NCBI GenBank assembly: GCA_903862655.1
Contig: CAIOZA010000020.1
Coordinates: 1-64,000 of the forward strand
Length of the DNA stretch: 64,000 nucleotides
Direction: 5' to 3'
Source of the DNA: an uncultured Ignavibacteria bacterium
GTDB taxonomy: Bacteria > Bacteroidota > Ignavibacteria > Kapaibacteriales > UBA2268
Within the stretch, counting starts at the first letter, position 1. Each line of letters starts with the position of its first letter. Positions 1-8,220 of the stretch are shown here, piece by piece. A program made the position numbers and the translations under genes. Below the pieces are notes generated by a model. It was given only the letters and a program-made list of their open reading frames with translations, was not told the origin of the DNA and searched no databases.

Positions 1-2386
1 AATTATAATTATCTAAAACGATAACTGCTGTCATCAATTTAGTTAAACTCGCAATTGATAATTTTTCGTTGCTATTTTTTTCTATAATAACCTTATTTAT
101 GCTTTGTATCTTTAGGAAATACATGCCCGATTGCTGACCTGTGAGGTCGATTCTGATATTGTTGCTGTCATTAAGTGAAAGATGCTGAATCTCCTGTCCT
201 AGTGAATTTATGAGCTTTAATCGGCTATTCTCCGGCACTCCTTCCACATCGATGAAGTCATTAGCAGGATTCGGATAGATACTTATGTTTGAGATCAGAA
301 TATCACTAACATCTGTTTCATCATAAATTGTAAAGGCTGAATCACTTTGAACTGAAGGAGATTTGTTATCGTCATCAACTATTTTAATTTTATATTGAGT
401 TCCTGCCGGGGTTGTGCTTAAATCCCAGCTGATTTTTCCAAGTGTTGCATCGACATTAGTGAAAAGTTGGTTCCAAGTGGTGCCGTTATTGGAGCTGATC
501 AAGATAGAAACTCTTGCAACCAGGGCACTTTCCCATTTGATTTCATAGTTAGATCCCATTTTGATCTGCTCCCCGCCCTTGGGTTGAAGCAAAGCAATAT
601 AAGCCACAGGATCTTTTACAATAGAAAAATTAGCATTTGAAACATCACTTATAGCTGTGGGTGAAGACTCGGGTTTACTTGTTAACTTTACCAGGCATGT
701 ATTTGACACATGATCCGGAACTGATAAAGATATTGTCCCGAATGCTGCGTCAACATTGTCACGTATGAGTTCCCATGTAGCAGCATTATCATAAGAAATA
801 TCAACTCTGATGGATTGGATATTTTCGGAAGTCCAGTTAATATTTGCTGATTTACCGACTGACCATTTCTCTCCACCGTTGGGAGTGGATAGTACTAACT
901 TTGGAGTAGGAGGTGCATCGGTTCCTATCAAACCATCTTTTGTGTATTTTACAAGGAAAGCATCTACACCACCGGCAAATGGTGACAAATCAACACTTTC
1001 CTTGTCGGTATAAAATGTTGAGATATTATTGATATTACCAGTCGTAATAATATTTTTTGAATCATCGAAAGCAACATTATTAAAAGACAAACCAATTTGA
1101 GGTAATGAGTATGGGTATCCGACTCCGGCAGTCCAAAGCAAATCACAGTCTTGGTTGTACTTAGCCAGGAACCCATCCCAATTTTTTGATCCAATAGAAT
1201 TTATCACCTTCTTATGTTGTTTAAGATCAAGGCTAATACTCTTCGCAAATGTTCCAGTCAGAAGAAGATTGTTATCTGAATCCTTTGATAAAGATGTAAT
1301 AGTGTTCAAACTATCAGCGGCTGTGGAGTATGCCCAGATGTAGTTTCCGTCAACATCATACTTTGCAAGAAATATATCGGATTTGACCTTAGGAGTAAGA
1401 TTTGCTGTTCCGTTTGGATTGAAGTTACAAAGCCTAGTGAAAGTACCTGCTGCGATAATGTTATCCGATTCATCAATTACCAATTTATTAACAACAGATT
1501 GACCGATTGTTGTAAGTTTATAGCCATACATAAGAGTTCCAATGATATCATATTTTACAATGAAGCCATTGGTGGGACCCGATGAAGTGAGGGGGTACTC
1601 GTCAACACCAATTTCGAAGTCAACAGTCTGTTGAAACGATCCGGCTAATATCATGCTTAAGTCGGAATCAAGTGTAACGGCATAGGCTTTGTCATCGCCG
1701 GCACCACCTATTGAAAATCCATACTCGTAATCACCCAAATCATTATAGTTGGCGACAAATATGTCTGTTAAACCATTGCTGGTGAACATAGCATTAGTAT
1801 TTGGTGGAAGAGTAGGATCAAGATTAATAGTTTGATCGAAATATCCGGTAACAGAAATGCTACCAAGAATATCAACAAACATGGATGTAGGTATGTCGTC
1901 ACCTGCACCTCCAAATGCATCCACCCAGACGAGAATACCATCAGAATTGTATTTAGCAAGAAATGCATCGGATTTCCCCTTACTGATTTTCTGAGTTTTT
2001 GTAGATTTAGGATTAAAATTAACCGTACCTGTAAATGAGCCACAGAGAAAGATATCGCCTGCATCGTCGATTTTCAGATCGGTCGGCGTGTCATTTTGTA
2101 AACCTCCCAGATTGAATCCCCATATATATTTTCCATCTTTATCGTATTTTGCAACAAAAATATCGGTAGTAGTCGGACCTGTTGACGTGAAAGCAGCTTT
2201 TGCTGTACCGGGATCAAGATCAGTAGTTCCAATGAAACTCCCAGCCAAATAAATATATCCCTGATGGTCAACTGCCAGCAACTGACCTTGCTCTAAACCG
2301 GCATCACCAATGGCTTCAAAGAGTTTAGCACTTGCTGTGAATTGAATTGCAATAACGAATAAGACTAAGGTAAATAATCTAAACAT
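1..2386 (-). CDS. Secreted SBBP beta-propeller protein with T9SS sorting domain, reading on into a PBP/carboxypeptidase SxxK motif (partial)
   Basis: The frame is open from an ATG at 2386 to the window edge (795 codons, no stop; I checked every codon). Residues 1-19 form a signal peptide. Residues from about 25 to 480 are SBBP-type propeller repeats with recurring FVAKYDKDG and GSFTGTVNF-like motifs. Two Kre9/KNH-like Ig domains follow, each starting at a PNGGE or PKGGE motif. A T9SS type A sorting domain starts at YPNPAND (about 704) and reaches GMYFLKIQ, where such proteins normally end within some ten residues. Here the frame continues to KLSIASLTKLMTAVIVLD, which has the SxxK serine and lysine (Ser780, Lys783) and the flanking residues of S11-family D-Ala-D-Ala carboxypeptidases. 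The rest lies outside the window. It could be a true fusion, a deletion junction or an assembly chimera. Confidence 0.85.
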   Translation of the reverse strand, partial: MFRLFTLVLFVIAIQFTASAKLFEAIGDAGLEQGQLLAVDHQGYIYLAGSFIGTTDLDPGTAKAAFTSTGPTTTDIFVAKYDKDGKYIWGFNLGGLQNDTPTDLKIDDAGDIFLCGSFTGTVNFNPKSTKTQKISKGKSDAFLAKYNSDGILVWVDAFGGAGDDIPTSMFVDILGSISVTGYFDQTINLDPTLPPNTNAMFTSNGLTDIFVANYNDLGDYEYGFSIGGAGDDKAYAVTLDSDLSMILAGSFQQTVDFEIGVDEYPLTSSGPTNGFIVKYDIIGTLMYGYKLTTIGQSVVNKLVIDESDNIIAAGTFTRLCNFNPNGTANLTPKVKSDIFLAKYDVDGNYIWAYSTAADSLNTITSLSKDSDNNLLLTGTFAKSISLDLKQHKKVINSIGSKNWDGFLAKYNQDCDLLWTAGVGYPYSLPQIGLSFNNVAFDDSKNIITTGNINNISTFYTDKESVDLSPFAGGVDAFLVKYTKDGLIGTDAPPTPKLVLSTPNGGEKWSVGKSANINWTSENIQSIRVDISYDNAATWELIRDNVDAAFGTISLSVPDHVSNTCLVKLTSKPESSPTAISDVSNANFSIVKDPVAYIALLQPKGGEQIKMGSNYEIKWESALVARVSILISSNNGTTWNQLFTNVDATLGKISWDLSTTPAGTQYKIKIVDDDNKSPSVQSDSAFTIYDETDVSDILISNISIYPNPANDFIDVEGVPENSRLKLINSLGQEIQHLSLNDSNNIRIDLTGQQSGMYFLKIQSINKVIIEKNSNEKLSIASLTKLMTAVIVLDNYN

Positions 2387-2519: not shown

Positions 2520-3572
2520 ATGTTCAGATTCGAAAATAGCATTTATCTTTATTTATTGGTATTAATTCCCGTAATATTTCTCCTTTGGCTATTGATGCGC
2601 CGATTGAGGAATAAGGCAATGCAACGCATTGGTGAGTCAAGTCTGATAAAGAGTTTACTCCCGGATTATTCAAGATACAAGAACTGGATTAAAATAGGAA
2701 TTGTTCTGCTGGCATTTGCGGCAGTAATTATTGGAACAGCAAATCCTCAGATCGGTACCAGACTCGAAGAATCTAAAAGAGAAGGAATTGATGTAATAAT
2801 TGCACTGGATATTTCAAACAGTATGCTTGCAGAAGACGTTAAACCAAGTCGGTTGGAATTCGCTAAGCAATCGATTAGTAAACTGGTGGACAGACTTCAG
2901 AATGACAGAATCGGGTTAATAGTTTTTGCAGGAGATGCATTCATACAATTACCACTGACAACGGACTTCTCCGCGGCAAAGCTGTTTTTGAGTGTGGTAG
3001 ATCCTGATTTGATTCAGGTACAGGGAACAGCAATAGGACAGGCTATAGATATTGCAGTTAAAAATTACAGCTTTGATGATAAAGTCAAAAAAGCACTGAT
3101 AATTATATCTGACGGTGAAAACCATGAGGATGATGCACTCGGGTCAGCACAGAAGGCTATGAAGGCAGGATTTGTTGTTAATACAATAGGGATAGGTTCA
3201 ACTCAGGGATCGCCAATACCTCTTTACAACAACAATCAGAGAACAGGATTCATGAAAGATAAGGATGGATCGCTTGTTACAACGAGAATGAATCCAGAAA
3301 TGCTAAGCCAGATTGCATCTGCAGGAAATGGATCTTTTCTGGCTGCAGGTAATACTGATCCGGATTTATCGAAATTAATAGATAAATTGGCAGGGATTGA
3401 CAAGAAAGAGTATAAGAGCAAGTTATTCACTGATTATGAGGACAGATTCCAGTATCTGTTTGGTTTGGCTCTTTTACTGATAATATTTGAACTAGTAATT
3501 TCTGAGAGAAATAACAAGTTGATGCAGATGTTAAACAAATTTGTAGAATCCAGGAGCTTGATATCCAAATGA
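2520..3572 (+). CDS. batB: BatB-like von Willebrand factor A membrane protein
   Basis: A 350-residue Bat (aerotolerance) family protein. Two N-terminal transmembrane segments (about 8-25 and 60-78) are followed by a periplasmic vWA domain with an intact MIDAS motif DISNS (Asp97) and the later threonine and aspartate positions (TTDFSAA, SDGENHED). A C-terminal transmembrane segment near 310-330 completes the usual BatA/BatB layout. Bat proteins are linked to oxidative-stress tolerance and envelope integrity in Bacteroidota and spirochaetes; the exact role is unsettled. The stop overlaps the batC start (ATGA), so translation is probably coupled. No second vWA gene (batA) and no MoxR ATPase lie next to it, which is unusual for a bat operon. 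Confidence 0.88.
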   Translation: MFRFENSIYLYLLVLIPVIFLLWLLMRRLRNKAMQRIGESSLIKSLLPDYSRYKNWIKIGIVLLAFAAVIIGTANPQIGTRLEESKREGIDVIIALDISNSMLAEDVKPSRLEFAKQSISKLVDRLQNDRIGLIVFAGDAFIQLPLTTDFSAAKLFLSVVDPDLIQVQGTAIGQAIDIAVKNYSFDDKVKKALIIISDGENHEDDALGSAQKAMKAGFVVNTIGIGSTQGSPIPLYNNNQRTGFMKDKDGSLVTTRMNPEMLSQIASAGNGSFLAAGNTDPDLSKLIDKLAGIDKKEYKSKLFTDYEDRFQYLFGLALLLIIFELVISERNNKLMQMLNKFVESRSLISK

Positions 3573-4330
3573 GAATAATAATTTTTATTATCGCTTTACT
3601 GATGCCATTTATGTTAAATTCACAAGATGTGAAGAAGCATATCAATTCAGGCAATAAACTGTACAAAGATAAGAAATATTCGGAAGCAGAAGTCGAATAC
3701 AGGAAAGCTCAGGAAGTTGATCCTAAGGAAACCAGAGCAGGCTATAACACAGCAAATTCTCTATATAAACAAAACAAATTTGATGAAGCAACCGATAAGT
3801 ATATAAATTCGATAACAACTTCGACTGATAAGTCAGTCCAGTCAAATGCATATTACAATTTAGGGAATACATACCTTCAGAAAAAGGAATACGAAAAGAG
3901 CATTGAAGCTTACAAAAATTCGTTAAAATTAGCTCCAAAGGATGATCAGGCTAAATACAATCTTGAATATGCAAGAAGAATGATGGTTCAACAACAGCAG
4001 CAGCAACAGCAGCAGCAACAACAGAACCAACAAAACAAGAATGATAAGAATAAGGATCAGAACAAGGATCAAAAGAAGCAGGACAGCAAAGACAATAAAG
4101 ACGATAAGAATAAAAAGGATGATCAGAATAAAGATCAGAACGATAAGGATAAGCAGGACAAGAATAAAGACCAACAGAAACAGCAGCAACCAAAAGATGA
4201 TAAGAAAATATCCAAGGATGAAGCTGAGAGAATACTAAATGCTTTAAAGAATGAAGAAAAGAAAGTACAGAAAGATTTAAAAAAGAAAGTGAAAGTAAAT
4301 GCTAACCAACAACCTGAAAAAAATTGGTAG
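3569..4330 (+). CDS. batC: BatC-like TPR protein with poly-Gln/Lys-Asp-rich tail
   Basis: A 253-residue exported TPR protein. Residues 1-19 are a signal peptide. About three tetratricopeptide repeats follow (roughly 20-135, with NLGNTYLQKKEYEKSIEAY typical). A run of 12 glutamines (141-152) leads into a long tail almost entirely of K, D, N and Q to about residue 225. BatC proteins in Bacteroidota commonly have a TPR unit and a low-complexity charged tail, so the layout supports the name. It starts inside the batB stop and overlaps the capA-like gene by 32 bases. The tail is repetitive enough to create several spurious open frames on both strands. Confidence 0.85.
   Translation: MRIIIFIIALLMPFMLNSQDVKKHINSGNKLYKDKKYSEAEVEYRKAQEVDPKETRAGYNTANSLYKQNKFDEATDKYINSITTSTDKSVQSNAYYNLGNTYLQKKEYEKSIEAYKNSLKLAPKDDQAKYNLEYARRMMVQQQQQQQQQQQQNQQNKNDKNKDQNKDQKKQDSKDNKDDKNKKDDQNKDQNDKDKQDKNKDQQKQQQPKDDKKISKDEAERILNALKNEEKKVQKDLKKKVKVNANQQPEKNW
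3989..4024 (+). repeat. CAA/CAG trinucleotide tract encoding Gln12
   Basis: Twelve glutamine codons in mixed CAA/CAG order, followed by AAG/GAT/AAC-rich triplets up to about 4200. The interrupted codon pattern should limit replication slippage. It lies at the junction between the TPR domain and the charged tail of batC. Confidence 0.9.
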
Positions 4331-5388: not shown

Positions 5389-8220
5389 CTAGATAATAAG
5401 CATTGCATAAATAATCCAAGCCACAAGTATCAGTCCAAATGTTAATGCAAAGAATCCGAATACTTTTAAGAGCTTGAGCATTTTTGGAGAAAACTCAGTT
5501 GTTGTGTAATTATCAATCTTACCTGATTCGACTAATCTTCTGTATTCATCCGGTCTGTCGAACTTCAATTCTTCCATTGTCATCTGTCCTGAGAAAATAA
5601 CAGTATCCATTGGAAACTTCTCTGGTCGGAAGTGAGTATTGAAGAAATGCACAGTAAAGATAAATCCAGCGGCTAGCAGAGCTTCATCACTGTGAATAAT
5701 TGTAGCAATGTTTATAAACGAGCCAGGGAAAATATTAGTCAACAACTCTGGGAACCAAAGGGTTAAACCTGTTCCACCGATGACAAAAATACCCCAGAAA
5801 ACAGCGAAGTAATCGAATTTTTCCCAATATGTCCACCTACCATAATTAGGGCGTTCACCTTTACCAATAAACCATTTGATGGAGGCTTTCATATCCTCTA
5901 AGTCCTTGAGGTTAGGAACAAGAGAATCCGGACCTAATAACATATTTTTCCATGTTTTAAATTCAGAATTTTTCTTTCTAAATAAATCAACAATGTGAAT
6001 AATAAAGATGGTGAACAATACAGTTGCCGCATACCTGTGGAGTGTGCCTGCATTCTCAACACCTCCAAGGAGACCGGCACCAATATTAGCCCAGATTGTA
6101 TATGAGAATTTAAGTACCATACCGGTCGCAGCAAGAGTAAGGAAGCTGCAAATCATAGTAAAGTGAATCAATCTGCTCAATCCAGAGAATCGTTCATACA
6201 TTTTAGATTTATCGTGACCAGATCCGGCATGAAGTTCCTTCATCTTCTTTCTCAGCTTGAATGAACGAGGAAACCAAAGAAGTGTATGCAGAAACGATAC
6301 CGAGAAAGTTCCTAAAAGCAATAAAGTCATACCCCAGAATGTATAAAACAAGAAAGGATATTTCTTTGGATCCTTATGAGTAGCATGAGACAAGTATTTG
6401 GTGAATCCTTTTGTCGCATTAGCATGACACTTCTGACATGTTTTAACGATATTACTTCTGCTTAGTGCTGAGTTTGGATTGTCAATAGGTAGAATCATGT
6501 GTGATCCGTGACAATCATTGCATTTTGCCGATTTATAAGAACCAAGCCAAGAAACTTTACCATGATAAGTTTCGAAATAAGTTTTTGCTATTTCGAGATG
6601 GCATTTGCCACAAGTACTTAATATTTCATGGCGGAAGTTCCATTGATCAGTTCTTTTAATTGTATGAGCAGAATGGCAGTCGCTACAGACAGGAAGTTTC
6701 TTATCTGTTTTGGTTACAGAAGGAGAGTGAACACTTTTGTTGAAAACATCTTCAATACCAAAGTGACACTTTCCGCAAGTACCGGCAATATTTGCAGGAT
6801 TAATACTTGACTGTGGATTATCTTTGGGCAGCCCTTTATGAGGAGTATGACAATCGGCGCAAGTTGCAGTGACAGTAAGACCACTCTTGACAAGTCCTCT
6901 GCCATGAATACTCTCATCATAATTGCTGGTAATGGAATGTTGAGTGCCTTTATACCTGAGTGCTGCTTTTTTCCCTTCCTGATGGCAGGTAGAACAGAGT
7001 TTCGGTATATTCATTGAGAATACTTTTGATCTTTTATCGCTTTTATTTAAGATAAAATGAGTGCCATGGCAATCTTTACATCTCGGTGCATCAGGATCGT
7101 TCCTTGCAACAAGTTTACCATGAGTACCCATCACAAAGTCGTTGCCAACAGCAGTATGACAAGAAGCACATTCAACTTTTGATGTAATCAGTGTCTCGCA
7201 TGCTCTTGTCTTTGACTCGGGATTAACTCCTAAATGGCATTGAGTACATGTTAATTTAGAGTGTGTTGAATTTAGAATTTCTCCATGATCAACAAACATA
7301 TTTCTACCGTCGGCAGACGTACCAATATTTTTTTTCTCATGACAGTTTTTGCAAGAAACATCAGATAGGTTCTGTTCATAGAATACTTTTCTTACTTTAT
7401 GTGGCTGATGGCAGTCAATACAAGCTGGAAGGACCTTTGCTTCTTTTTCCCAAAGTTCGCCCTTTATTATCTTTTTGTGAACAAATTCAATACCAGCATG
7501 GCATTTGGTACAAGTTGCAGCGATATTCTTTCTGGAAATGGATGACCTGGGATCTGTATGAGGCAAAATCCTATGAGGCGTATGACAAGAAGCGCATGTA
7601 GCACTAACTGTCAAACCTTTTTTAATTAGACCTTCACCGTGGATACTTTCCTGGTAATTTTCATAAATATGGCTTTGAGGAATGTTCCTTTGCATCTGAA
7701 CGGGTGAACCTTCTCTATGGCATCCACCACAGAGCTTAGGTATGTTCAGAGGATAAACTGTTGACTGCTTGTCTGATCTGGGTAGAATTTCGTGACTACC
7801 ATGGCATGTCTGACAAGTAGGAGCCAGTGGATCTCCTTTAGCTTTAGCTTTGCCATGAAGGCATTCGTTATATAATGCTTGTTCATCTTTATGGCAACTT
7901 CCACATTGATACTTTGGTTTGCCTTCTACATGAGGGAAGCTTCCTGGGTCGAATCCCACGTGGCATTGAACGCATTTCATACCGGCATGGATTGATTTGT
8001 TCAGCTTTTTGGCATTAACGAATAAGGACACAGTCTTCTTGCCACGTTGTGTAGTTAAAGTTTTATCCTCGTGACACCCAAGACATTCGTCATTTTCCTG
8101 AGCAAAAAGCTTAACAGGTAGTTTAGTTGCAAAAATACCAACAAAAACAGCAAATATCAACAAAATCAAACTGAATTTGAGCTTTTGATGGACTTGTAGA
8201 TAGTGAGAAAATTTTTTCAT
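5389..8220 (-). CDS. 19-heme cytochrome c / membrane cytochrome b fusion
   Basis: 943 residues. An N-terminal signal/anchor (about 14-40) leads to a periplasmic domain with 19 CXXCH heme-c sites between residues 46 and 599. The C-terminal third (about 625-943) is a cytochrome b-like membrane domain with at least six hydrophobic segments and conserved histidines (LIHF, LHRYAATVLF, IIHIVDLF, IIHSDEALL, VHFFNTHF). The domain order suggests quinone-linked electron transfer between the membrane and a periplasmic heme wire; direction is not shown. Hemes 2-9 and 10-17 look like two copies of one 8-heme unit, with a partial third copy at 18-19. The first three heme motifs resemble the N terminus of the 13-heme protein at 10516-12045. 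It is the last gene of a probable three-gene unit. Confidence 0.88.
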   Translation of the reverse strand: MKKFSHYLQVHQKLKFSLILLIFAVFVGIFATKLPVKLFAQENDECLGCHEDKTLTTQRGKKTVSLFVNAKKLNKSIHAGMKCVQCHVGFDPGSFPHVEGKPKYQCGSCHKDEQALYNECLHGKAKAKGDPLAPTCQTCHGSHEILPRSDKQSTVYPLNIPKLCGGCHREGSPVQMQRNIPQSHIYENYQESIHGEGLIKKGLTVSATCASCHTPHRILPHTDPRSSISRKNIAATCTKCHAGIEFVHKKIIKGELWEKEAKVLPACIDCHQPHKVRKVFYEQNLSDVSCKNCHEKKNIGTSADGRNMFVDHGEILNSTHSKLTCTQCHLGVNPESKTRACETLITSKVECASCHTAVGNDFVMGTHGKLVARNDPDAPRCKDCHGTHFILNKSDKRSKVFSMNIPKLCSTCHQEGKKAALRYKGTQHSITSNYDESIHGRGLVKSGLTVTATCADCHTPHKGLPKDNPQSSINPANIAGTCGKCHFGIEDVFNKSVHSPSVTKTDKKLPVCSDCHSAHTIKRTDQWNFRHEILSTCGKCHLEIAKTYFETYHGKVSWLGSYKSAKCNDCHGSHMILPIDNPNSALSRSNIVKTCQKCHANATKGFTKYLSHATHKDPKKYPFLFYTFWGMTLLLLGTFSVSFLHTLLWFPRSFKLRKKMKELHAGSGHDKSKMYERFSGLSRLIHFTMICSFLTLAATGMVLKFSYTIWANIGAGLLGGVENAGTLHRYAATVLFTIFIIHIVDLFRKKNSEFKTWKNMLLGPDSLVPNLKDLEDMKASIKWFIGKGERPNYGRWTYWEKFDYFAVFWGIFVIGGTGLTLWFPELLTNIFPGSFINIATIIHSDEALLAAGFIFTVHFFNTHFRPEKFPMDTVIFSGQMTMEELKFDRPDEYRRLVESGKIDNYTTTEFSPKMLKLLKVFGFFALTFGLILVAWIIYAMLII

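Follow-up and report, generated by a model that had tools for sequence, protein, structure and literature searches.

Locus Structure and Position on the Contig

The window, defined as the whole 64,000-nucleotide stretch of DNA that was analyzed, comprises bases 1–64000 of contig C20 (133,333 bp), which belongs to a draft genome of 4.07 Mb in 148 contigs (bin 98.35% complete, 1.4% contamination). At its left edge lies a minus-strand frame (2386..2) that encodes 795 amino acids and remains open, with no stop before window base 1. This base is also base 1 of the contig, and there is no sequence further left. Frame translation combined with Pfam and NCBIfam searches indicates that the frame encodes SBBP/delta-60-like propeller repeats, an Ig-like domain, a type IX secretion system (T9SS) sorting domain, and a putatively foreign tip with which it runs off the contig end. 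The propeller-type repeats were recovered as weak, single-repeat matches to SBBP and delta-60 (Pfam and NCBIfam), and a LipL53-type profile scored 90.6 bits on the 795-aa protein, under its cut-off of 400. The Ig-like domain, Kre9_KNH (PF10342), occupies aa 601–686 (329..586, minus strand), with a whole-protein score of 36.3 bits against a cut-off of 24.6.

Two other genes in this part of the window were noted. A 943-aa protein (5389–8220, minus strand) contains in a single chain many c-type heme motifs, of the cytochrome c7/c3 families, and at its C-terminus a membrane domain resembling that of cytochrome b561. A TPR-like protein (3569–4330, plus strand) that adjoins a BatA-type VWA gene features a run of ~12 glutamines and a long low-complexity stretch rich in Lys, Asp, Gln, and Asn.

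Overlapping Sorting-Domain and Peptidase Matches

The sorting domain was identified by Por_Secre_tail at aa 703–770 (profile positions 1–72 of 75; 77..280, minus strand) with 43.9 bits against a Pfam cut-off of 27, and TIGR04183 scored 37.1 bits on the 795-aa protein against a cut-off of 23. The protein thus carries a sorting domain over the curated cut-off, as is characteristic of T9SS type A cargo (PF18962). Peptidase_S11 (PF00768) was matched at aa 762–793 (profile positions 21–52 of 239) with 28.6 bits (Pfam cut-off, 27.6), and the final 32 residues alone scored 34.4 bits (E 2e-8). Because the match is over the Pfam cut-off and the last 32 residues reach this E-value, the S11 resemblance of the tail is very unlikely to be due to chance. 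A profile built from 60 S11 proteins encoded on viral contigs yielded 36.4 bits at aa 761–793. The motif SLTK lies inside the over-cut-off match and provides the SxxK motif in its expected context. The SxN and KTG motifs, and with them a complete catalytic domain, are missing from a match in which the contig stops at profile position 52 of 239.

The first-pass annotation of this DNA had described a frame from position 2386 that is open to position 1 and in which a T9SS sorting domain runs into an S11 block, and both translation and Pfam confirm this description. It had also placed the join at a short similarity, correctly so: the two Pfam matches have aa 762–770 in common (SINKVIIEK; 9 residues, window bases 103–77). 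This segment (77..103, minus strand) is the likely join zone, given the overlapping domain matches, and is compatible with the final strand of the sorting domain as well as with what precedes the SxxK motif in S11 proteins. Beyond it, the putatively foreign tip (1..103, minus strand; 76–103 bases, depending on the position of the join) comprises the S11 N-terminal block with SLTK, corresponding to profile positions of about 20–52 of 239. Since the window begins at the contig end, the S11-like part is confined to the final ~76–106 bases of C20. The GC content of the tip is 0.23–0.25 when compared to 0.39 in the remainder of the frame; values as low were found in 0.9% of 76-base segments within the same frame and in 8% across the whole window, and with a stretch so short the difference is suggestive only.

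Distribution of S11 Homologs in the Genome and Its Relatives

At E-values up to 1, the S11 profile recovered from the bin the tip and four weak matches, and no remainder of an S11 gene. The four weak matches comprise two S13 D-Ala-D-Ala carboxypeptidases and two proteins of the beta-lactamase family, and no contig in the bin carries an S11 domain that is missing its N-terminal block. The organism has two S13 carboxypeptidases in place of an S11 enzyme. The missing S11 piece could reside on a small unbinned contig.

Of the family and order, 119 genomes were screened (the host included); 23 had a match to the S11 profile at an E-value of 0.001, and five matches were over the cut-off. These five comprised the tip itself and four short matches to the SxxK region in proteins of ~550–570 aa, which resemble S13 enzymes in size when set beside the two S13 proteins of this genome. 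A full-length S11 domain was detected in none of the searched genomes of the family, order, or class. Across the phylum, represented by 395 evenly drawn genomes, long S11 matches (E < 1e-30) were restricted to a distant family (f29). The tip peptide had no match among 30 S11 loci of this family at E-values up to 10, and these loci are therefore not close donors.

Termination of Sorting-Domain Proteins

At least 150 sorting-domain matches were identified in the genome (150 candidates were scored). To determine the distance between the domain and the stop codon, we sampled the 30 best matches and excluded the tip protein and one protein with an internal TAA. In all 28 of the others, the stop lies 1–8 residues past the match. 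Locus L093 of this genome (C59:12039-12236) has a sorting-domain match broken by an in-frame TAA and is possibly a decaying cargo gene. The nearest orthologs of the 795-aa protein, in genomes G018 and G033 (37% identity), have a stop directly after the corresponding C-terminal domain and are devoid of an S11-like tail. Because the 28 sampled domains and both orthologs stop at this point, the true stop of the frame should, as predicted from these sequences, fall a few codons past NKVIIEK, which is where the S11 block begins. The true end of the protein is hidden by the contig tip.

In Porphyromonas gingivalis, a C-terminal His-tag extension of the C-terminal domain (CTD) is tolerated, whereas replacement of the last residues is not (PMC11285876). 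The biological argument alone would thus not exclude an extension beyond the sorting domain.

Sequences Resembling the Contig Tip

Viral contigs, scanned with an alignment of a few S11 blocks, yielded at least 223 confirmed loci. Examination of 80 of these revealed 60 distinct proteins of 226–361 aa, all with K[TS]G downstream, and the two viral-contig proteins scanned for domains were both assigned to Peptidase_S11. Small S11 D,D-peptidase genes with SxxK and K[TS]G motifs (226–361 aa; loci L119–L198) are thus common on viral contigs, many of which are large (up to 354 kb). The consensus of the viral S11 proteins around the motif (gevieeknseevrsIASitKLMTamVvLd) is very close to the tip. Among the matches listed, the best was L119 (73% identity over 30 aa and 78% over 54 bases) and the closest relatives were on viral contigs, with bacterial PbpG-type enzymes similar too.

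When species genomes and viral contigs were searched for exact DNA matches to the tip, no donor emerged, and no sequence of near-identity either. A peptide search of species genomes returned 64 pattern matches, none of which was confirmed; the patterns lacked the conserved SxxK block, so the search was a weak one. The longest exact word shared by the tip and the fetched viral S11 loci was 14 bases, which is no better than controls, indicating that the donor is not among these loci. A literature search for a combination of T9SS and S11 found none.

Contig Ends and Assembly

Iterative de Bruijn assembly proceeds through increasing word lengths, and joins made at small words are carried up as the word length grows. 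We examined 41 contig ends of the bin and found two pairs that share exactly 141 terminal bases; the C20 tip has no terminal word in common with the rest of the bin. MEGAHIT leaves contig ends that share a word of the maximal length, and a word length of 141 has been used with this assembler (PMC10914622). We infer that MEGAHIT was probably the assembler of this genome. The tip, at fewer than 110 bases, is shorter than one 141-base assembly word. Contigs that are chimeric for two organisms have been described as infrequent but genuine (PMC7111523). At the right end of another contig of the genome (C71; locus L236), a TGCCTCC tandem repeat was identified, which is an ordinary cause of an assembly break.

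Origin of the Apparent Fusion

C20 carries at its tip sequence of foreign character that is unexplained by the lineage, and the apparent T9SS/S11 fusion is very probably a chimeric contig tip that resulted from assembly error rather than a new enzyme. The native gene would be an ordinary T9SS-type propeller protein with its true stop a few codons after NKVIIEK. A short stretch, shared or similar, would have linked it to the beginning of an S11 D,D-peptidase gene that belongs to another genome in the same sample, whether of a phage or of a different bacterium, with the contig ending within ~100 bases. Such a join may have been made during assembly through a small shared word, and a chimeric read could give the same result. 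Both genes would encode similar peptides there and in the same reading frame, so that the false join leaves the frame open. An open frame across a join is no proof of a real fusion, since joining at a stretch of similar peptide tends to keep the frame.

The first-pass annotation had offered three explanations, namely a surface-targeted peptidoglycan enzyme, a deletion between two genes, and an assembly error, and it is the last that we favor. A deletion between two of the organism's own genes is improbable: its genome offers no S11 gene from which the second half could have come.

An event in the cell is unlikely. In this reading, foreign DNA bearing an S11 gene, from a phage or elsewhere, would have been inserted or recombined at the end of the propeller gene, and the assembly would then have broken inside it. 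The frequency of small S11 genes on viral contigs and their resemblance to the tip are consistent with such an event, and a strain-variable insertion would break the contig too. However, the bin contains no matching phage or S11 contig, and there is no reason why an insertion should preserve the frame and hit a stretch suited to both families.

A real fusion, in which a complete S11 D,D-peptidase domain follows a buried sorting domain on a propeller protein, is very unlikely. The frame is open, both domain matches are significant, and, as in P. gingivalis, an extension of the CTD need not abolish export. Nevertheless, the bin holds no S11 remainder, the searched genomes of the family, order, and class have no full-length S11 domain, all 28 sampled sorting domains have at most 8 residues after them, and the supposed fusion sits where the contig runs out, within its last ~100 bases. 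This positional argument does most of the work against a fusion, and together with the absence of S11 from the bin and lineage and the terminal position of the sampled sorting domains it tells against the surface-targeted enzyme that had been proposed. Were the fusion true, the protein would be the first enzyme acting on peptidoglycan in which a T9SS signal is buried; nothing here supports such a fusion. In a more specific scenario, a T9SS-bearing bacterium would have captured an S11 gene, from a phage or some other source genome, and would now produce the D,D-peptidase on a propeller scaffold whose sorting domain is internal; this is highly improbable. That the tail is native sequence merely looking like an S11 block is hardly credible, even though the match spans just 32 residues, given its E-value of 2e-8, its 36.4 bits with the viral-contig profile, and orthologs without such a tail.

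More generally, a domain fusion that lies no further than about one assembly word from the end of a contig should be discounted.

Comparison With Known Systems

The C20 tip, read as the product of a chimeric join, resembles the joins described from short-read metagenome assemblies (PMC7111523), in which two organisms are combined in one contig and the phylogenetic profile differs on each side. It departs from these in that the foreign part of C20 comprises only the last ~80–100 bases. On the native side, the frame resembles T9SS type A proteins (Por_Secre_tail, PF18962 / TIGR04183) with propeller repeats, including a sorting domain over the cut-off, a YPNPAND start, and a GMYFLKI strand, but unlike these proteins it has no stop codon before the contig ends. 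On the other side, the tip shares with small PbpG/PBP7-type S11 D,D-peptidases, including those at viral loci L119 and L120, the segment [NE]-V-I-x-E-K-N-S-x-E followed by SIAS[LI]TKLMTA and VLD, whereas it covers only about 33 of 239 profile positions and is without the SxN and KTG motifs of those enzymes.
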